A DNA stretch of 32,441 nucleotides from Rhodoferax sp. (GTDB taxonomy: Bacteria > Pseudomonadota > Gammaproteobacteria > Burkholderiales > Burkholderiaceae_C), in NCBI GenBank assembly GCA_030683195.1, contig JAUXQA010000012.1, positions 1 through 32,441 on the forward strand, written 5' to 3'. Positions 1-20,296 of the stretch are shown here, piece by piece (position 1 is the stretch's first letter; the number at the start of each line of letters is the position of its first letter). The notes under the pieces are model-generated. The model did no database searches. It was not told where the DNA came from and saw only the letters and a list, made by a program, of their open reading frames with translations. Both the position numbers and the translations under genes were made by a program.

Positions 1-401
1 GCGTTTGGCTGCACGGGCGGCGGGTCTTGCTGGTGGATGACGACCCGCTGGTGCAGCTGGCCATGCAGGCGCTGCTGGGCGGTTGGCAGCTGGATGTGCG
101 CACGGCCACGCGCGGCGACGAATCGGTGCTGGCGGTGTGCCACAGTGGCTGGGAGCCCGAATGTGTGCTGTGTGATTTCAGACTGCCTGGCCCCATGAAC
201 GGCATTGAGCTGCTGGACTTTTTGCAACAACAATTCCCCACCGCCATCGGCCTGCTTATTACCGGTGAAATGGTGCAAACCGTGCAACAAGCCGCCGAAG
301 ACGCGGGCTACATGCTGCTCTCCAAGCCCGTGGATGCCAGTGTGCTGGCCTACACCCTGGGGGCTTTGCTGGAGCGCCGCCGCGAGGAAAGAACGCCATG
401 A
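1..401 (+). CDS. C-terminal receiver domain of a (probably hybrid) sensor histidine kinase, truncated by window start
   Basis: Frame is open to the window edge (VWLHGRRVLLVDDDPLVQ...); receiver hallmarks LVDDD, CDFRLPG, LLSKPVD; overlaps next gene by 4 nt (ATGA). Confidence 0.8.
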   Translation, partial: VWLHGRRVLLVDDDPLVQLAMQALLGGWQLDVRTATRGDESVLAVCHSGWEPECVLCDFRLPGPMNGIELLDFLQQQFPTAIGLLITGEMVQTVQQAAEDAGYMLLSKPVDASVLAYTLGALLERRREERTP

Positions 402-1012
402 ACATTTTGATTGTGGATGACCACCCGCTCACCTGCCAGGGCCTGGCAGCCCTGCTGTCTGCCACCCAGCTGGGCGCGCAGGTGCAAAGCGCCTACTCGG
501 CTGCGCAGGCGCGCCTGGCACTGCAAAAGCTGCCCAAACCAGACTGGATTTTTCTGGACATCAACCTGCCGGACGACCCGGAGCACGCGCTGTTCAGAGG
601 CTTGTGTGAATCCACCTGGATTGACCACACAGTGCTGATATCGGCCGACCCACAGCATCGGCTGATTCGCCGGGCTTTGGCGGAAGGTGTGCGGGGATTT
701 ATTCCTAAAACCGCAGACCCGGAGCTGGTGCTCGATGGATTTTCCCGCATTTTGGCGGGTGAATTTTATGTACCCTCCGCCCTGGCGATGCAACTGAGAG
801 ACACGGCCCACTCAGATTCGCGCCCCTTGTCGCCCCGCTTGCAACAAGTGCAAGAATTGTTGTTGCGTGGCACGGCCAACAAAATAATGGCTCGCCAGCT
901 GGGGTTGTCCGACCACACCGTCAAAGAATATGTTTCGTCGGTGCTGACCTTTCATGGCGCTGCCAACCGACTGGAGCTGGTGCTCAAGCTCTCCAAAGAG
1001 ATCAACCCCTAA
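398..1012 (+). CDS. LuxR/NarL-family response regulator
   Basis: N-terminal receiver (MNILIVDDHPLTCQGL, FLDINLPDD) and C-terminal LuxR-type HTH (LSPRLQQVQELLLRGTANKIMARQLGLSDHTVKEYVSSVL). Confidence 0.88.
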   Translation: MNILIVDDHPLTCQGLAALLSATQLGAQVQSAYSAAQARLALQKLPKPDWIFLDINLPDDPEHALFRGLCESTWIDHTVLISADPQHRLIRRALAEGVRGFIPKTADPELVLDGFSRILAGEFYVPSALAMQLRDTAHSDSRPLSPRLQQVQELLLRGTANKIMARQLGLSDHTVKEYVSSVLTFHGAANRLELVLKLSKEINP

Positions 1013-8383: not shown

Positions 8384-9628
8384 TCATGCTTTGGGCGGTG
8401 TTCCTTCGGCATTTGAGACGACAACATCGATTTGGATCAAAGCATTGCCGGCCAATCCAGATACGCCAACTGTTCTTCGGGCAGGAACACCGCCCGGGAA
8501 GAATGTGGTGTAAACCTCGTCCACCGCTGCCACGTCTTCGATGTTTTTAAGGGCGATGTTTACTTTCACTGTATCGCTCATGACGTGGCCGATACTTTCA
8601 ACAATCGCCTTGATGTTTTTCAGGCACTGGCCCGCCTGTTCCTTGACGCCGCCAGCGATCATTTCACCAGTTTTTGGATCCAAAGCCAATTGCGCTGAAA
8701 TATGGTTGTAGTGAGAAAAGGCGACAGTTTGTGAGAAGGGGCCTCTTGTCGCATTGTCCGTATTGTTTGCTTTGATGACGATGTTGCGCGCGTCTTCAAC
8801 CGCTTGCGGGGGTGTGCCGTCTCCGTGTGACACAACGGCTTCGATTTGCACCAACGCATCCATCGGCAACGCTGAAGCCACCACGGCCGTCAACGCTGGC
8901 ACATAGCCCGGGAAATATGTTTTATAGGCTGCAGTTGCAGTTTTGATGTCCGAGACATTTGTCACGAACAAGGTGATTCTGACCACATCATCCATCACGT
9001 GGTCGATGCTCTCCAAAATGCACCGGATGTTTTTCAGGCACTGCTCACTCTGCTCTTTGACGCCGCCCGCGACCAGTTCGCCAGTTTGGGGATCCAAAGG
9101 CAACTGGGCTGAGATATTGTTGTAGTGAGAAAAAGCGACGGTTTGTGTAGACAGAGGACTTTTGGGTGCGCTTTCCGTATTTCTTGCCACTTTGACAAGG
9201 TCGCCGGCCTGCGGCGCTTGCGGAATGGTGCCTTCGCCGTTGGATACAAGGGCTTCAATTTGCACCAGCGCACCCAGGGGTAAAGCGGCAACAGCAAGGG
9301 TTGTCCGGGTAGGAACATAGCCGGAGAAGAACGTTGTAAAAACTTCATCTACAGCGTCCATATCCGATATGTTCTTGACGAATGTAGTGAGCCTGACCAC
9401 ATCGTCCATCGCATGGTCGATGCTGTCCAGAATGGCCTTGATGTTTTCAAAGCACTGCCGCGCTTGCTCTTTGACACCGCCGGCCACCAATTCACCGGTT
9501 TTTGGATCGACAGGCAGCTGAGCTGCGAGATTGTTGTAGTGAGAGAACGCGACGGACTGTGAATAGGGGCCTGTACTTTTTGGCGCATTTGCCGTATTTC
9601 TTGCCAAGACTGCGTTGTAGTTACTCAT
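8384..9628 (-). CDS. Protein with three tandem RidA (YjgF/YER057c/UK114) domains (ORF open to 9700; MSNYNAVLARN start preferred)
   Basis: Three copies of [Q/S]xVAFSHYNxxxAQLxxDPxTGExxAGGVKEQxxQCxxNIxxIxxSIxHxMxDxVx, spaced exactly 138 codons (V of VAFSHYN encoded at ~9553, 9139, 8725). Confidence 0.92.
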   Translation of the reverse strand: MSNYNAVLARNTANAPKSTGPYSQSVAFSHYNNLAAQLPVDPKTGELVAGGVKEQARQCFENIKAILDSIDHAMDDVVRLTTFVKNISDMDAVDEVFTTFFSGYVPTRTTLAVAALPLGALVQIEALVSNGEGTIPQAPQAGDLVKVARNTESAPKSPLSTQTVAFSHYNNISAQLPLDPQTGELVAGGVKEQSEQCLKNIRCILESIDHVMDDVVRITLFVTNVSDIKTATAAYKTYFPGYVPALTAVVASALPMDALVQIEAVVSHGDGTPPQAVEDARNIVIKANNTDNATRGPFSQTVAFSHYNHISAQLALDPKTGEMIAGGVKEQAGQCLKNIKAIVESIGHVMSDTVKVNIALKNIEDVAAVDEVYTTFFPGGVPARRTVGVSGLAGNALIQIDVVVSNAEGTPPKA

Positions 9629-9887
9629 GAGATGATTGAATTCTGGGGTTGTAGTTGTAAGCTGATTTAACGTGATTTGGAAACCGGACAAGCATTTCAA
9701 CTGCCTTCTGGACAGAATCGTAGCTTTGATCGACCACTAACCCACGTTAAAACCCTAGGGATTCTCGCTGCAGACCGACTCTTGGGCAAGCCACTGCCAT
9801 CACCAAAAATGTGCCTGCTGGTCGAAGACATGGTCGCCTGACACCAGCCCGCCCAAAGCGGGGCAGGACCGGTGTGAATGATGCGAA

Positions 9888-9947: not shown

Positions 9948-10976
9948 TCATGCCACCCCCACCCAGCGCTTGCGGCTGGTGCGCAGGCTGTAGCGGGCGC
10001 GGTAGGCGGCCGGCAGGTCGCCGGTCTGGCGGGCAAAAAGCCGCCGGAAGGTGCCGGTGTCCTGGTAGCCGCACATCTGCCCGACCTGCTCCACGCTCAC
10101 ATAGGTGGTCTCCAGCAGCACCCGCGCGCGGGCCACGCGCAGGCCATGCAAATAGTCCAGCGGGCTTTGTCCGTAGGCGCTGGCAAAGTGGCGCAAGAGC
10201 GTGCGTGGGCTGGTGGCAGCGGCCTGCGCCGTGGCACTCAGGCTGTAGGGCTCGGTCATGTGGTCTTCCAGCCAGCGGCGCGCCCGCTCCAGCGCGCCGG
10301 GGGGCAGCAGGCGGGGCAGGCCACCCAGCGCCATGCCGGCGGCCACCTGCTGACGCGACTCAGAGTGCAAAAAAACGTGGGCTGCGGCCATCGCCAGCTC
10401 GGCCACGGGGGTGTGACTCAGCATGTTCAGCACCACCTCGGTGGCCAATACCGGAGAGTCACAGGTCCAGACCCGGTCGTCCACGGTCCAGGGCCGGTCG
10501 GTCACCAGGGCCACGCCCGGGGCGTGGCGCAGCACCGGCCCGACAAACGGCCACGGCACCACCGCCTGACGCTGCAAAAGCCCCACTTCGCCCAGTAACG
10601 CCACCCCTGTGCTGAGCCCGGCGACCAAGCCACCCGCGGTATGCACTTGCGCCAGCCGGGCGGCTGACGGGGCAGCCTGGGTGACGAGTTGGTCCAGGTG
10701 GGGCCCGCTTTGCGCGTGCCAGCCGGGCACCACCACCATCGAGGCGCGCCCCCGCCAGCGTGACCCCTGAGGCAGAGACTGCGGCACGCGGGCACCTCGG
10801 GCGCACCACCAGCGCCAAGTCACCGGATCGGTCACGCGGGGCGTGCGCATGGCGGCCACCAGGTTGATGCAGCGCAGCACATCCACCACGGCCAACGCGG
10901 CCCCGGCCAGAACCTCGGGCCCCCAAAAAATGTCAATACACAACACGGGGCTGGCGGTTTGGGCAGGCAATGACAT
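9948..10976 (-). CDS. GlxA-family transcriptional regulator (DJ-1/PfpI-like domain + AraC HTH)
   Basis: C-terminal AraC HTH: LSATAQAAATSPRTLLRHFASAYGQSPLDYLHGLRVARARVLLETTYVSVEQVGQMCGYQDTGTFRRLFARQTG; N-terminal amidotransferase-like region. Confidence 0.88.
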   Translation of the reverse strand: MSLPAQTASPVLCIDIFWGPEVLAGAALAVVDVLRCINLVAAMRTPRVTDPVTWRWWCARGARVPQSLPQGSRWRGRASMVVVPGWHAQSGPHLDQLVTQAAPSAARLAQVHTAGGLVAGLSTGVALLGEVGLLQRQAVVPWPFVGPVLRHAPGVALVTDRPWTVDDRVWTCDSPVLATEVVLNMLSHTPVAELAMAAAHVFLHSESRQQVAAGMALGGLPRLLPPGALERARRWLEDHMTEPYSLSATAQAAATSPRTLLRHFASAYGQSPLDYLHGLRVARARVLLETTYVSVEQVGQMCGYQDTGTFRRLFARQTGDLPAAYRARYSLRTSRKRWVGVA

Positions 10977-11071
10977 GGCGAAAACACCCTCTATGTTGGC
11001 AACTGTTGCACTTTAGCCCAGGGCGCTTATCCCGTAGCATGAATCCTTCATCTGACCCACCAGGAGTTTTC

Positions 11072-12088
11072 ATGCGCTCACTGCCTCTTGCCGCCGCCCC
11101 TGCCTCACACGGCGGGCCCCGACCGAGCCGCCGCCATGTGGTGCTGGCGGGTGCCGCCACGCTGGCCGCTCCCCTGGCTTGGGCTCAACCCGGCTTCCCC
11201 AGCAAGCCGCTCACGCTGATCGTGCCGTTCACGGCGGGCGGTGCGTCGGATGTGGGCGCCCGCATGCTGGGCACGGAGCTGGGCAAACTGCTGGGCCAGA
11301 CCGTGGTGGTGGAAAACCTGGCCGGCGCCGGTGGCGCACTGGCCGTGCAAAAACTCATTCGCGCACCCGCCGACGGCCACACGCTGCTCTACGGCGGCAT
11401 GAGCGAGACCTTGCTGGTGCCTCTGATCAACCCCAGCCTGGGCTACAAACCCGAAGACCTGTTGCCCGTGGCCCTGGCGGGCAGCTCACCTATTTTGTTT
11501 GTGGTGCGACCTGAATTCCCGGCCAACACCATGGACGAGCTGGTGGCCCTCGTGCGCAAAAACCCCGGCAAGTACAGCTTTGGATCCGCCGGCATTGGCT
11601 CGTTTGCCCATGTGATGGGTGAGGTGGTCAAGGAGCGCGCGGGCATGTTCATGGTGCACATCCCGTACCGGGGCGGGCAGCAAATCATCACCGATGTGAT
11701 TGGCGGCCAACTCGACATGGGCATCACCACCGCCGCCAACGCGGCGTCGATGATTGCCAACAAACGGATCAAGGCGCTGGGCGTGTCGGCGGGGGAACGG
11801 GTGCCGGTAATCAAGGACGTGCCGACTTTCTCTGAGTCAAATGCACTCAAGGGCCTGCAGATGAGTGTGTGGGCTTTTGTTTACGCCCCCAACAACACGC
11901 CCGCAGCGGTAGTGGAACGGCTGAACACGGCCATCAACACCGCTCTGATGGTGCCCGCGCTCAAGGAGGCACGGGTTCGGCTGGCCTCCGACCTGCCCTC
12001 ACTGATGACGCCGGCACAGTCTCGCGCCTTTATTGCGGCAGAACAGGCACTGTACAAGCCGGTAACCAGCCGCATCAAGCCGGAGTAG
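11072..12088 (+). CDS. Bug/TctC-family tripartite tricarboxylate transporter solute-binding protein
   Basis: Tat-like SRRHVVLAGAATLAAPLAWA; FPSKPLTLIVPFTAGGASDVGARMLGTELGKLLGQTVVVENLAGAGGALA...; CAGGAG upstream of the ATG at 11072. Confidence 0.92.
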   Translation: MRSLPLAAAPASHGGPRPSRRHVVLAGAATLAAPLAWAQPGFPSKPLTLIVPFTAGGASDVGARMLGTELGKLLGQTVVVENLAGAGGALAVQKLIRAPADGHTLLYGGMSETLLVPLINPSLGYKPEDLLPVALAGSSPILFVVRPEFPANTMDELVALVRKNPGKYSFGSAGIGSFAHVMGEVVKERAGMFMVHIPYRGGQQIITDVIGGQLDMGITTAANAASMIANKRIKALGVSAGERVPVIKDVPTFSESNALKGLQMSVWAFVYAPNNTPAAVVERLNTAINTALMVPALKEARVRLASDLPSLMTPAQSRAFIAAEQALYKPVTSRIKPE

Positions 12089-12091
12089 GCG

Positions 12092-13273
12092 ATGCCAGAA
12101 ACCGCAAATCAAAGCGCGCACGCAGCACAACCCGGGCAAGCCCAAGACCCCCAAGACGCAGCCAACGGCACTGGCGGTTACGCCCCAAACTACGCGACCG
12201 CCCGCCAGCAGTTTCTGGCCGCAGCCACTCTGGCGGGCGTTGCGCTGGAGAGCCTGCCACACCCGCAACGCGGCCCCGACGGCGGCGAACTCGCCATTGA
12301 CCTGGCCTGGCTGGGCCCGCGCGACGCCCGACGCGTGCTGGTGCTGATCAGCGGCACGCATGGCGTGGAGGGCTACCAGGGCAGCGCAGCGCAAGTGGGC
12401 TTCTTGGGCCACACCGCCAGCACCCTGCCAGCGGATACTGCCGCGCTCTTGATACATGGCCTGAACCCGTACGGCTTCGCCTGGGTGCGCCGGGTGAATG
12501 AAGACAACGTCGACCTGAACCGCAACTACCTGGACTTCTCGCGCCCGCTGCCCAGCAACCCGGGCTACGGGCAAGTGCACACCCTGATCCTGCCCGAGGC
12601 ACTCACCCCGGCGGCACTGGGGCAGGTGCAGCAGCAGTTGGTGGATTACATGGCGCGCGTGGGCAAGGCGGCAGCCGCCACGGCCATCACCGGGGGGCAG
12701 TACACCCATCCGGACGGCATTTTTTATGGCGGCCAGGGCCTGTGCTGGTCCAACCGCCAACTGGCCAGCATCGCCGGACGCTACCTGCAGCAGGCCCGCG
12801 TGATCTGCGTGCTGGACCACCACACTGGCTTGGGACCGGTAGGCCACACCGAGCTGATCTGCCGCCACCCCGCAGGCTCGCCCGAGCTGGCACTGGCACG
12901 CGCCTGGCTGGGGCCGGATGTCACTTCCCCGGCCGCAGGCGAATCGGCCTCGGCCGTGATTGATGGCAATGTGCGCATGGCCTTTGGCAGCCTGTGCCCG
13001 CACGCGCAAGTGGTGTCGGTCTGCCCCGAGGTCGGCACGGCCCCCGAGTCCCAGGTGCTGGCGGCCTTGCTGGCTGACAACTGGCTGCACCAGCGCGGCG
13101 CGCCACTCTCGGCACTGGGTGACGGTGTGCGCCAGCAAATGATGGGTGCCTTTTGCCCCCGCGATGCCGCCTGGCGCGCCCAGGCGTTGGCGCGCGCCAT
13201 GGCCATCCACCGCAGCGCACTGGTCGGGCTGAGCAGCGTGGCGCTTGAACCGCTCGCGCTGGATCACGCATGA
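12092..13273 (+). CDS. DUF2817 / M14-like metallo-hydrolase
   Basis: VLVLISGTHGVEGYQGSAAQVGFL, ALLIHGLNPYGFAWVRRVNEDNVDLNRNYLDFS; begins 3 nt after the preceding stop. Confidence 0.87.
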   Translation: MPETANQSAHAAQPGQAQDPQDAANGTGGYAPNYATARQQFLAAATLAGVALESLPHPQRGPDGGELAIDLAWLGPRDARRVLVLISGTHGVEGYQGSAAQVGFLGHTASTLPADTAALLIHGLNPYGFAWVRRVNEDNVDLNRNYLDFSRPLPSNPGYGQVHTLILPEALTPAALGQVQQQLVDYMARVGKAAAATAITGGQYTHPDGIFYGGQGLCWSNRQLASIAGRYLQQARVICVLDHHTGLGPVGHTELICRHPAGSPELALARAWLGPDVTSPAAGESASAVIDGNVRMAFGSLCPHAQVVSVCPEVGTAPESQVLAALLADNWLHQRGAPLSALGDGVRQQMMGAFCPRDAAWRAQALARAMAIHRSALVGLSSVALEPLALDHA

Positions 13274-14814
13274 ACGCCGCAGCTTCACTTGCGCCCCGCC
13301 CCCTGCGTGTGGGTGTGTGCGGCTTCTTTATTGAGTGCAACCGTTGGTCCCCGCTGAGCACGGCCGACAGCTTCTTCGCCGGCATGGACCTGGCCGGTGA
13401 CGCCCTGCAAGCCGAACTCCGGCGCGAGCAGCCCCGCACCTTGCCCGACACGGCCGGCTTTGTGGCCGCCATGAACCGGCTCGGGCCTTGGGAACCTGTG
13501 GCCTTGCGCTTGGCCGCAGCCCAGCCCGGAGGCCCGGTGATGCACAGCTACTTCGAATCTGTCGCCCGAGATATCGAAGCGCGCCTGCTGGCCGCAGGCC
13601 CGCTGGACGCCGTGTTCATTTCATCCCATGGCGCCGCGCTGACCACCGAATGCGACGACCCGGATGGCGAGTTGTTTGAACGCATCCGCGCCATCGTGGG
13701 ACCAAATGTGCCAGTGGTGGCAGTGCTGGACTTGCACACCAATGTGTCGAGTCGCATGACCGATGCCCTGTCTGCGTTTGTCGCTTACCGCACCAACCCC
13801 CACACCGACCTGCGCGAGCGCGGTGAAGAGGCCGCGCAACTCCTGTACACGCTAGTGGCCCACGGCCCTGGAGTGGTGGAACTCGTCAAATTGCCCCTGG
13901 TTCCCCCGGCCACCACGCAACTGGTGAGGCCCGGCTCGCCTTACGCCGATCTGATTGCACTGGGGCAGACCCAGGCGGGTGGGTCAATTCTGAACGTGTC
14001 GCTGTGCGGCGGCTTTGCGTTGGCGGACTGCGCCAAGTGCGGCTTTTCAGTGGTGGTGACTGCGCAAGACGGCAACCGGGCTGCTGCCCGGGCCCTGGCG
14101 ACCGAACTCGCGCGCGCCGTGTGGCAGCAGCGCCACCGATTTGTCTCGCCGCTCACGCCTTTGCCCGATGCCGTGCGCGCTGCCGTGCTGGCCGGCCGCC
14201 CCGGGGGCCAGCCCCTGATATTGGCGGACGTGGCCGACAACCCGGGCGGTGGCGGGGGTGGCAACACCGTCACGCTCCTGCTCGCCCTGCTCAGTTCGGG
14301 TGCCCAGGGTGTCTTGCTGGGGGTGTTCACCGACGCCGCACTGGCCAGCGAAGCCCACGCGCGGGGCGTCGGCGCTGAATTCACCGCGCACTTCAACCGC
14401 GACAGCACCGATCCAGTGATTGCACCCTCCCTCAGTCACCCGGCCCGCGTGCTGACCCTGTCCGACGGGCGTTTTGTCGGGCGCCAAGGCATGGTGAGCG
14501 GCTCGCAGCAGACCATGGGGCACTCGGCCCTGCTGGACCTGGGCGGCGTGCGGGTAGCGGTGATCTCACAGCGCCAGCAACTCATTGACCCCGCGCAACT
14601 TGACGTGCTGGGCGTGGACCTCGGCACCGTGTGCACCCTGGCCGTCAAGAGCCGAGGGCATTTTCGGGCCGCTTTTGAGGGGTTTGCACCGCCTGACCGC
14701 ATACTGGAGGTGGATTGCCCCGGCCTGACCACGCCCAACCTCGCCACCTTGGCGTGGACCCGCCTGCCGCGCCCTATTTTCCCCCTTGACCAAGACCTTA
14801 CCTGGACCCCCTGA
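13270..14814 (+). CDS. M81-family metallopeptidase (MlrC-like)
   Basis: FISSHGAALTTECDDPDGELFERIR, VVAVLDLHTNVSSRMTDAL, AYRTNPHTDLRERGEEAAQLL, ADVADNPGGGGGGNT; overlaps previous gene by 4 nt (ATGA). Confidence 0.9.
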   Translation: MNAAASLAPRPLRVGVCGFFIECNRWSPLSTADSFFAGMDLAGDALQAELRREQPRTLPDTAGFVAAMNRLGPWEPVALRLAAAQPGGPVMHSYFESVARDIEARLLAAGPLDAVFISSHGAALTTECDDPDGELFERIRAIVGPNVPVVAVLDLHTNVSSRMTDALSAFVAYRTNPHTDLRERGEEAAQLLYTLVAHGPGVVELVKLPLVPPATTQLVRPGSPYADLIALGQTQAGGSILNVSLCGGFALADCAKCGFSVVVTAQDGNRAAARALATELARAVWQQRHRFVSPLTPLPDAVRAAVLAGRPGGQPLILADVADNPGGGGGGNTVTLLLALLSSGAQGVLLGVFTDAALASEAHARGVGAEFTAHFNRDSTDPVIAPSLSHPARVLTLSDGRFVGRQGMVSGSQQTMGHSALLDLGGVRVAVISQRQQLIDPAQLDVLGVDLGTVCTLAVKSRGHFRAAFEGFAPPDRILEVDCPGLTTPNLATLAWTRLPRPIFPLDQDLTWTP

Positions 14815-14816
14815 AC

Positions 14817-15827
14817 ATGGACTTATCCCGCTTTCCCCGCCGCCGTTACTCAGTTGGACCCACACCCCTGGAGTTTTTGCCCAACTTCACCCGCGCCCTG
14901 AGCCCCCAGGGCGACGGCCCCAACATCTGGATCAAGCGCGATGACATGCTGGGCCTGTTCCCCGGCGGCAACAAGACCCGCAAGCTCGAATTTTTGATGG
15001 CCGATGCCCTGGCCCAGGGCACCGACACGCTCATCACCTGCGGCGCGCCCCAAAGCAACCACTGCCGCATTACGCTGGCGGCCGCCGTCAAAGAAGGCCT
15101 CAAATGCCGCTTTGTGATTGAAGAGCGGGTGCCCGGCAGCTTCAACGAGACGGCCAGCGGCAACCATTTCATGTTCCGCCTCATGGGCGTGGAGTCCCTC
15201 ACCGTGGTGCCCGGAGGCAGCAACATGGCCGCTGCCATGCAACAGGTGGCCGACGAGCTGGCTGCCGAGGGCCGCAAGGGCTACATCATCCCCGGCGGCG
15301 GCTCCAACGCACTGGGCGGCCTGGGTTACGTGGCCTGTGCGCAAGAGCTGCAAGAGCAGTTTTTCGAGCAAGGCGTGCGCATCGACCGCGTGGTGGTGGG
15401 CTCCGGCAGCTCGGGCACGCACGGCGGGCTGCTTGCAGGATTTTTGGGCAACCACATCAACATCCCCATCGTGGGCATTGGCGTGAGCCGCGATCCCGCC
15501 GATCAGGAGCCGCTGGTGCACAAGGAAGCGCAGGCCGTGGCCGACCTGCTGGGCACTGGCATGACCATTCCGCGCGACGCGGTGGTGAGCGTGGGCGGCT
15601 ACTGGCAACCCAAATACTCCATCCCGAACGACGCCATGGTGGAGGCCGTGCAACTCCTGGCCCGCACCGAGGCAATTCTCCTGGACCCGGTCTACACCGG
15701 CAAAATCATGGCCGGCCTGATCGGCCTGGCACGCCAAGGCTTTTTCAAACCGGGCGAAAACGTGCTGTTTTTACACACCGGCGGCATGCCGTCCCTGCAC
15801 GCCTATGAACGGGAGTTGCTGGCCTGA
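14817..15827 (+). CDS. PLP-dependent D-cysteine desulfhydrase / ACC-deaminase family enzyme
   Basis: IWIKRDDMLGLFPGGNKTRKLEFLMADAL, GAPQSNHCR, VVVGSGSSGTHGGLLAG, LDPVYTGKIMAGLI, LFLHTGGMPSLHAYE. Confidence 0.9.
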   Translation: MDLSRFPRRRYSVGPTPLEFLPNFTRALSPQGDGPNIWIKRDDMLGLFPGGNKTRKLEFLMADALAQGTDTLITCGAPQSNHCRITLAAAVKEGLKCRFVIEERVPGSFNETASGNHFMFRLMGVESLTVVPGGSNMAAAMQQVADELAAEGRKGYIIPGGGSNALGGLGYVACAQELQEQFFEQGVRIDRVVVGSGSSGTHGGLLAGFLGNHINIPIVGIGVSRDPADQEPLVHKEAQAVADLLGTGMTIPRDAVVSVGGYWQPKYSIPNDAMVEAVQLLARTEAILLDPVYTGKIMAGLIGLARQGFFKPGENVLFLHTGGMPSLHAYERELLA

Positions 15828-18722: not shown

Positions 18723-19484
18723 ATGCCCACTCGCAAGGAAGCCACCGCTCCTACCCAGGCCATTCCTTTTGTATGCAATGAACACGACAGCAAATCCCTG
18801 CACTTCTCCAACAGTCAGGAGCAAAGCAAGATGCTGGTGAGCCAGCCCAATGAACTGGCTGTGGACTACACCCGAACGATGATGGGCTTTTTGCTGCTGA
18901 AACAAAAACCTAGTCACATTTTGATGATTGGCCTGGGTGGGGGCAGCCTGGCCAAGTATTGCCACCAGCATTTGCCGGACACGGAACTCACCGTGATCGA
19001 AATCAACCCGCTGGTGATCGCCTTGCGCGGCGAGTTCCAGGTGCCGGATGACAACGAACGCTTCCATGTCATTGAGGCCGATGGCGCCAACTTTGTGCGC
19101 GATACGGACCAGCTGTTTGATGTGGTGCTGGTAGACGGCTTTGACCAGCAGGGCCAACCGGCGCAGCTGTGCTCCCAGCATTTTTATGAGGACTGCAGCC
19201 GCGTGCTCGAAGCCCCCGGCGTGCTGGTGGTAAATCTGCATGACGACCATGCGTTTTACGAAGTTTTTATTGACCGGATCAATCGGTCTTTTGACAGCAA
19301 CACCGCCGAAGTGGCAGCCAACGACGAAGGCAATGTAATCATTTTTGCCGGTAAAGGCCTGCCCGTGTCGCCGTATGCCTTGCGCAACGCGATCCAGGGC
19401 GTTCAAGACACCTGGAACGAGCACCCGTCATCCAGGCCAGACCTGCCTCAAGCCCTGCGCCTCTTGACCAGCGCTGCAGCGTGA
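18723..19484 (+). CDS. Spermidine-synthase-like (SAM/dcSAM-binding Rossmann) protein, paralog 1
   Basis: YTRTMMGFLLLKQKPSHILMIGLGGGSLAKYCHQHLPDTELTVIEINPLVIALRGEFQVP...FDVVLVDGFDQQG. Confidence 0.87.
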   Translation: MPTRKEATAPTQAIPFVCNEHDSKSLHFSNSQEQSKMLVSQPNELAVDYTRTMMGFLLLKQKPSHILMIGLGGGSLAKYCHQHLPDTELTVIEINPLVIALRGEFQVPDDNERFHVIEADGANFVRDTDQLFDVVLVDGFDQQGQPAQLCSQHFYEDCSRVLEAPGVLVVNLHDDHAFYEVFIDRINRSFDSNTAEVAANDEGNVIIFAGKGLPVSPYALRNAIQGVQDTWNEHPSSRPDLPQALRLLTSAAA

Positions 19485-20296
19485 CGGCGGACGCCCTGAA
19501 CCGGGGCTTCACGACTCTGACGCCGCGGGTGCTGCCCTTTGTTCGGGGCAATGAGGCTACTTTGTCCCTGCATTTCAACCTGGGTACGATTCAAAGCCGG
19601 ATGGTGCGCCAGAAACCTTTTGACCTGGATTTGCCCTACACCAGGACCATGATGGGTTTTCTCCTCTTCCTGCCGCAGCCAACACATATTTTGATGATTG
19701 GTCTGGGCGGGGGTTCCCTGGCCAAGTTTTGCTACCGAAACCTGCCCGAGACCCGCATGACCGTGGTCGAAATCGACCCCCTCGTTGTGGCCATGCGACA
19801 GCAGTTCCTGATTCCCGGGGATGACGCGCGCTTATCGGTGGTGTGTGCCGATGGGGCAGCCTTTGTGCGCGACGCCAAGCCCGAATTTGATGTGATTCTG
19901 GTCGATGGCTTTGATGCCGGGGGGCAGTCCGACGCGCTCACCACACAGGCGTTTTACGACCATTGCCACCAGTGCCTGAGCGGGCACAGCCTGATGGTCG
20001 TCAACCTCGACAAGGGACACCCGGATCACGCCTGCTTCGTGCAGAGAATTCGCCAAACCTACGCCGATCAGGTGTTGATTCTGGACGTGGATGAGCGCGA
20101 CAACTGCATTGTTCTGGCTGGCAAAGGTGTGTCTCTGGCCGCCAGCGACATGAACCTGAGTGCGGCGCTGGGGCACCACAGGCCTGATGTACAAAGCCAA
20201 CTCAAAGGCGAGTTTGAACGCATCTTGCGCGTGCTGCACAAATTGGAGCCTTTGGCGACCGAGCCGGGCCTGCGCTTTCCCCAACTCACGCTTTAA
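19481..20296 (+). CDS. Spermidine-synthase-like protein, paralog 2 (GTG start)
   Basis: YTRTMMGFLLFLPQPTHILMIGLGGGSLAKFCYRNLPETRMTVVEIDPLVVAMRQQF...FDVILVDGFDAGG; overlaps paralog 1 by 4 nt (GTGA). Confidence 0.87.
   Translation: MTADALNRGFTTLTPRVLPFVRGNEATLSLHFNLGTIQSRMVRQKPFDLDLPYTRTMMGFLLFLPQPTHILMIGLGGGSLAKFCYRNLPETRMTVVEIDPLVVAMRQQFLIPGDDARLSVVCADGAAFVRDAKPEFDVILVDGFDAGGQSDALTTQAFYDHCHQCLSGHSLMVVNLDKGHPDHACFVQRIRQTYADQVLILDVDERDNCIVLAGKGVSLAASDMNLSAALGHHRPDVQSQLKGEFERILRVLHKLEPLATEPGLRFPQLTL

Follow-up and report, generated by a model that had tools for sequence, protein, structure and literature searches.

RidA is a small detoxifying enzyme that is normally a ring of three chains. In a 32,441-nt contig of a Rhodoferax genome (JAUXQA010000012.1, the whole of which was analysed and is called here the window), one open reading frame carries three RidA domains in a single chain. 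The locus raises the question of how this chain arose, whether it folds as a ring by itself, and what has become of its three active sites.

Three RidA domains in one reading frame

The gene lies on the minus strand, about which the first-pass annotation of this DNA was silent, and reads from an ATG at 9628 to 8384. This ATG is the likely start, over an upstream TTG at 9700, because MSxYNAV opens most relatives. The gene and its domains are:

8384..9628 (stop codon included), minus strand: 3x-RidA gene, 414 aa (ORF, Pfam PF01042, TIGR00004)
9236..9607, minus strand: RidA domain 1, about residues 8-131 (Pfam best stretch 13-128; repeat copy 9215-9514)
8822..9193, minus strand: RidA domain 2, about residues 146-269 (repeat copy 8801-9100; TIGR00004 match 8831-9181)
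8408..8779, minus strand: RidA domain 3, about residues 284-407 (repeat copy 8387-8686; TIGR00004 match 8417-8752)

A profile search, as the first-pass annotation had proposed, bears out its claim of one ORF with three complete RidA domains: PF01042 (E 4.1e-74) and TIGR00004 (E 2.5e-85) each match three stretches of the 414-aa protein. The whole protein scores 282.9 bits with TIGR00004, above the curated cut-off of 106.25; taken singly, domain 1 passes (115.9) and domains 2 (85.2) and 3 (97.9) stay below it. A DNA repeat search found three 300-nt copies, of which the middle one shares 63% and 70% identity with the outer two. Their start-to-start distances are 414 and 414 nt, which agrees with the spacing of 138 codons reported earlier for both intervals. 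Each domain contains the motif VAFSHYNxxxAQLxxDPxTGExxAGGVKEQ, as had been said. The three-domain repeat structure is not due to chance.

The architecture itself is not new. Niehaus et al. (2015) named a subset of RidA proteins with three tandem-fused domains 3x-RidA, gave EF_0115 of Enterococcus faecalis V583 as an example, and already read these proteins as presumably covalently linked trimer units (PMC4433059). The window's protein belongs to this published group, and the novelty that had been attached to a single-chain RidA trimer is lost, name and covalent-trimer reading having been in print since 2015. Whether the architecture is common and already characterised, a doubt raised with the original claim, can be answered in part: 3x-RidA is named in print, and no biochemistry was found in the literature searched. 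Our literature search, which covered few subscription journals, found the name 3x-RidA in PMC4433059 only and, within the same coverage, no report of activity, oligomer or structure for any 3x-RidA. An E. faecalis RidA family protein of 422 aa, from the same species as EF_0115 and maybe another protein, has 59.8% identity with the window's. With 3x-RidA of the E. faecalis type the window's protein shares full-length homology and a SHYN motif in all three domains; it differs in lacking an 8-residue loop and the arginine in domain 2 and is otherwise alike.

Origin of the triplication

Relatives were collected by a scan of 84,980 genomes seeded with peptides of the window's protein, so that single-domain RidAs are not expected among the matches. 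The scan confirmed 199 relatives, and 80 were kept; all 80 of these loci are full-length triples of 410-425 aa, 66-78% identical to the window's protein, and they span seven phyla (Bacillota, Pseudomonadota, Bacteroidota, Actinomycetota, Acidobacteriota, Chloroflexota and Spirochaetota).

The exact 414-nt period would be expected from a recent tandem duplication in the window's genome, or from an assembly artefact. The domains themselves speak strongly against both. The three domains of the window's protein are 51-56% identical to one another, compared with a median of 77-81% for the same domain between proteins, and the relatives are full-length in 80/80 cases. We also built a domain tree, another of the checks proposed earlier, from 98 domains (78 from 26 triples, plus 20 single-domain RidAs). 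All 78 triple domains fall on one side, apart from the single-domain RidAs, with support 100/100; third domains group together (100/98), as do second domains (95/85), and first domains form two pieces at the base. Domains 1, 2 and 3 of different bacteria thus group by position, which indicates one ancient triplication before the spread of the gene. A recent duplication was rejected on the domain identities and the tree, and we give it, or an artefact, practically no credence. Of the internal duplication proposed by the first-pass annotation, the three homologous domains stand; a recent date for it is not supported.

The period has a different explanation. Among 81 full-length proteins (window included) the spacing between SHYN motifs is 138/147 residues in 72 and 138/138 in 5, so that an exact 138-codon period cannot serve as a mark of fresh duplication. 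Ten of 88 proteins, the window's included, have no counterpart to 8 residues that precede the domain-2 arginine in the others, and this difference, with one residue in domain 3, accounts for the equal 138/138 period, which on these alignments is secondary. Seven of the 10 proteins without the domain-2 loop also lack the domain-2 arginine, compared with 6 of the 78 with it. The loop reads DSAIAR at L003:6001-7269 (+) and in most relatives, lies just before the domain-2 arginine, and is strongly conserved where present.

Predicted fold and probable ring closure

The AlphaFold2 check suggested with the original claim was run on a shallow alignment of 81 sequences and gave a compact model of the window's protein, with a pLDDT of 89.3 and a pTM of 0.92, which fits a closed pseudo-trimer better than separate beads. 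We compared this model with solved structures by two methods. The best rows from Foldseek were single-domain RidAs. A second structural aligner placed first the single-chain chorismatase 4bps (Z 27.3, rmsd 2.7 over 280 residues, model 29..405); the single-domain RidAs among its listed matches reached a Z of at most 23.0 (5v4d, Z 23.0, 126 residues). Each of the 47 different solved sequences that phmmer listed from the PDB has the length of a single domain (117-165 aa), and no three-domain relative is among them.

Since RidA domains trimerise between chains, the window's protein might be a string of three independent domains, which would form trimers with those of further chains, and the low pLDDT of the first linker (52, residues 131-140) would fit such an arrangement. 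It is nevertheless very unlikely in view of the pTM of 0.92 and of the superposition across all three domains at rmsd 2.7, because loose beads would hardly match a compact protein of one chain over that extent. The protein is likely, on that pTM and this one superposition, to be a closed single-chain pseudo-trimer, and we infer that the ring is closed in solution. The covalently closed trimer of the first-pass annotation is thereby retained as the likely fold, if not as a new idea.

In Arabidopsis RidA a salt bridge between K136 and E182 helps to keep the trimer assembled (PMC4960622). With positions placed by counting from the arginine, the basic residue is kept in 79, 81 and 81 of 81 proteins in domains 1, 2 and 3, the domain-1 exceptions being two Ala, and the acidic residue in 81/81 in each domain. 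Covariation of the pair (residues 79, 217 and 355 with 125, 263 and 401) gave no usable signal.

Active-site arginines and the SHYN motif

Changing the arginine to Ala nearly abolishes activity of plant and Salmonella RidA (PMC4433059). The positions considered here are:

9305..9307, minus strand: Arg108, domain-1 counterpart of essential RidA Arg105 (Arg kept in 69/90 proteins)
8891..8893, minus strand: Leu246 in place of the domain-2 arginine, a presumably dead site (Arg kept in 77/90)
8477..8479, minus strand: Arg384, domain-3 arginine (invariant, 90/90)
9533..9544, minus strand: SHYN of domain 1, residues 29-32 (90/90; predicted beta-hairpin, strands 25-28 and 31-34)
9119..9130, minus strand: SHYN of domain 2, residues 167-170 (90/90)
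8705..8716, minus strand: SHYN of domain 3, residues 305-308 (90/90)

The window's protein has arginine in domains 1 and 3 and Leu in domain 2, and at the position of Tyr17 it has Y, S and F in domains 1, 2 and 3; these differences show that the sites have diverged, in support of the earlier suggestion that the three interface sites could specialise. In a set of 88 proteins, counted by alignment columns, the arginine is kept in 68, 75 and 88 for domains 1, 2 and 3. All three arginines are kept in 57/88 proteins, so that dependence on one site is not general, and the domain-3 arginine stands alone in 2/88. On the gene tree the arginine changed at least 6 times in domain 1 and 7 times in domain 2; finding 0 of 13 changes in domain 3 has a probability of about 0.005 if the sites are equal, a rough figure from a quick tree with 36/85 inner branches open. 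The domain-3 site would then be the essential one. The Tyr17 counterpart is invariant in no domain (Tyr in 72/88 in domain 1). A pairing of Tyr17 with Arg384 across the interface that closes the ring was considered and rejected: members from E. faecalis and Photobacterium have no Tyr at the domain-1 position, and which way the ring runs could not be read.

SHYN occurs in all three domains in 90/90 triples and in 0/20 single-domain RidAs. When the domains of one protein are compared with each other, identity is 88-93% over residues 26-39 and 16-17% over residues 8-25, which points to strong, symmetric constraint on the SHYN region. Fusion of the ring might have freed two sites to decay, with SHYN forming a second site close to the pseudo-threefold axis, where three histidines might bind a metal or an anion; we consider this combined proposal quite unlikely. 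If the SHYN second site were real, the protein would be an asymmetric domain-3 enzyme with a symmetric element that single-domain RidA lacks. Neither the bias towards the domain-3 arginine nor the SHYN motif was found in the literature searched; both add modestly to the published description.

Distribution and gene neighbourhood

The gene has a patchy distribution and is probably mobile. Full triples are present in 3/148 relatives searched and in 7/398 genomes of the phylum, the window's counted in both; G088 is another carrier within the window's genus. The gene has a GC content of about 50-56%, compared with 62-72% in the flanks, and the gene tree mixes phyla. Divergent copies lie in plasmid records, among them at least 7 V. 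parahaemolyticus plasmids of 85-104 kb (57% identity). A conserved neighbourhood was sought and rejected: among neighbour clusters across 81 loci none apart from the gene itself is common to more than 14 loci (the most shared, cluster 1, is found in 14/81, with a median of 324 aa and a median distance of 3.8 kb), and 11 loci compared gene by gene by eye, the window included, look unrelated. The lack of a conserved neighbourhood, the GC contrast, the phylum-mixing tree and the plasmid copies together argue for horizontal spread of a stand-alone gene.

A divergent branch (L095-L098 and L130, 61-64% identity) comes from Vibrionaceae-like genomes; L097, L098 and L130 have the domain-2 loop, and L095 and L096 lack it. 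A full triple of 58.5% identity is also carried by a 139-kb record titled Enterococcus phage (OR846589.1), probably mislabelled host DNA.

In the window, an AraC-type regulator (9948-10976, minus strand) adjoins the 3x-RidA gene and is divergent from a likely operon (10970-15827, plus strand) with a TctC receptor, a DUF2817 protein, an M81/MlrC metallopeptidase and a PALP-family enzyme, the last of which is located as follows:

14817-15827, plus strand: PALP-family gene, in the window, 5 kb from the 3x-RidA gene

By name we take this enzyme to be D-cysteine desulfhydrase/ACC-deaminase-like. It was considered as a source of 2-aminoacrylate (if a D-cysteine desulfhydrase) and set aside, as it lies 5 kb off and none was noticed by eye in ten other loci. 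Further along, at 18723-20296 on the plus strand, two adjoining ORFs with a 4-base overlap share TRTMMGFLL and HILMIGLGGGSLAK stretches and resemble, by eye, tandem spermidine-synthase-like paralogues.

Probable function

The window's protein and single-domain RidA (TdcF, YjgF, UK114; TIGR00004) share the fold, the Arg105 counterpart, the salt-bridge residues and the expectation of imine hydrolysis; they differ in that the former has one chain for three, a SHYN hairpin and non-equivalent sites. By this analogy it is probably an imine/enamine deaminase. The chorismatases 4bps and 5a3k, which we take to be single-chain RidA-like pseudo-trimers of FkbO/Hyg5 type, superpose as one chain on all three domains of the model (Z 27.3 for 4bps) and differ in chemistry and in sequence (13-14% identity). 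At the cut-offs used, the window's protein matched RidA-type families and no chorismatase in Pfam, in NCBIfam and in a phmmer search of the PDB. The catalytic residue of Hyg5 is Glu334 (PMC7170507); near the chain end, it would fall close to the domain-3 acid D401 by aligned ends (405 to 340).

This likeness allows that the three-domain chain has given up imine hydrolysis for a different, single-site chemistry, as chorismatases did on the same fold. Such a change would suit the fact that the best superposition is with chorismatases and not RidA, the replacement of the usual RidA hairpin by SHYN in all three domains (90/90 compared with 0/20), and a domain 3 with D for E (76/81) and an extra Arg (76/81). 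At E 1e-15, in a search in which the window's genome is 70% complete and the others are drafts, TIGR00004 matches 25/25 carrier genomes, 18 of them beyond the triple, so that the triple need not do the RidA job there. However, the arginine of imine hydrolysis is invariant in domain 3, and the likeness to chorismatases is one of fold alone. Furthermore, the triple's domains are the sole matches in 7/25 carriers (the window's, G014, G088, G534, G544, G547 and G550), of which the first six are Comamonadaceae, and this fits a RidA role. We regard a different chemistry as unlikely, if worth keeping in mind.

The reading that we hold with good confidence is that of an anciently triplicated 3x-RidA, a closed pseudo-trimer and probable imine/enamine hydrolase encoded by a probably mobile stand-alone gene, with the domain-3 cleft constant. 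An ancient triplication of RidA would have given one chain folding as a closed pseudo-trimer, and the gene would have spread alone by horizontal transfer. Imines and enamines such as 2-aminoacrylate would be hydrolysed at the inter-domain clefts, as in RidA. Fusion would let the three clefts evolve apart, and for this reason only the Arg384 cleft would be universal, those of domains 1 and 2 being optional; in the window's protein the domain-2 cleft would have lost its arginine.

In the window's genus 42/89 genomes match TIGR00004, three of them through the triple, and in Comamonadaceae a RidA function that is weak or missing in most relatives may be provided by the triple. Outside this family it appears, from the genomes compared, to be an extra beside other RidA-type proteins. 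With single-chain trimers one can test cleanly how many of its active sites a symmetric enzyme requires. The 3x-RidA proteins form a series of this kind in nature: several lineages have lost site 1 or site 2, and none of the 90 proteins has lost site 3. Each site of a 3x-RidA can also be mutated separately, which is impossible in a homotrimer.
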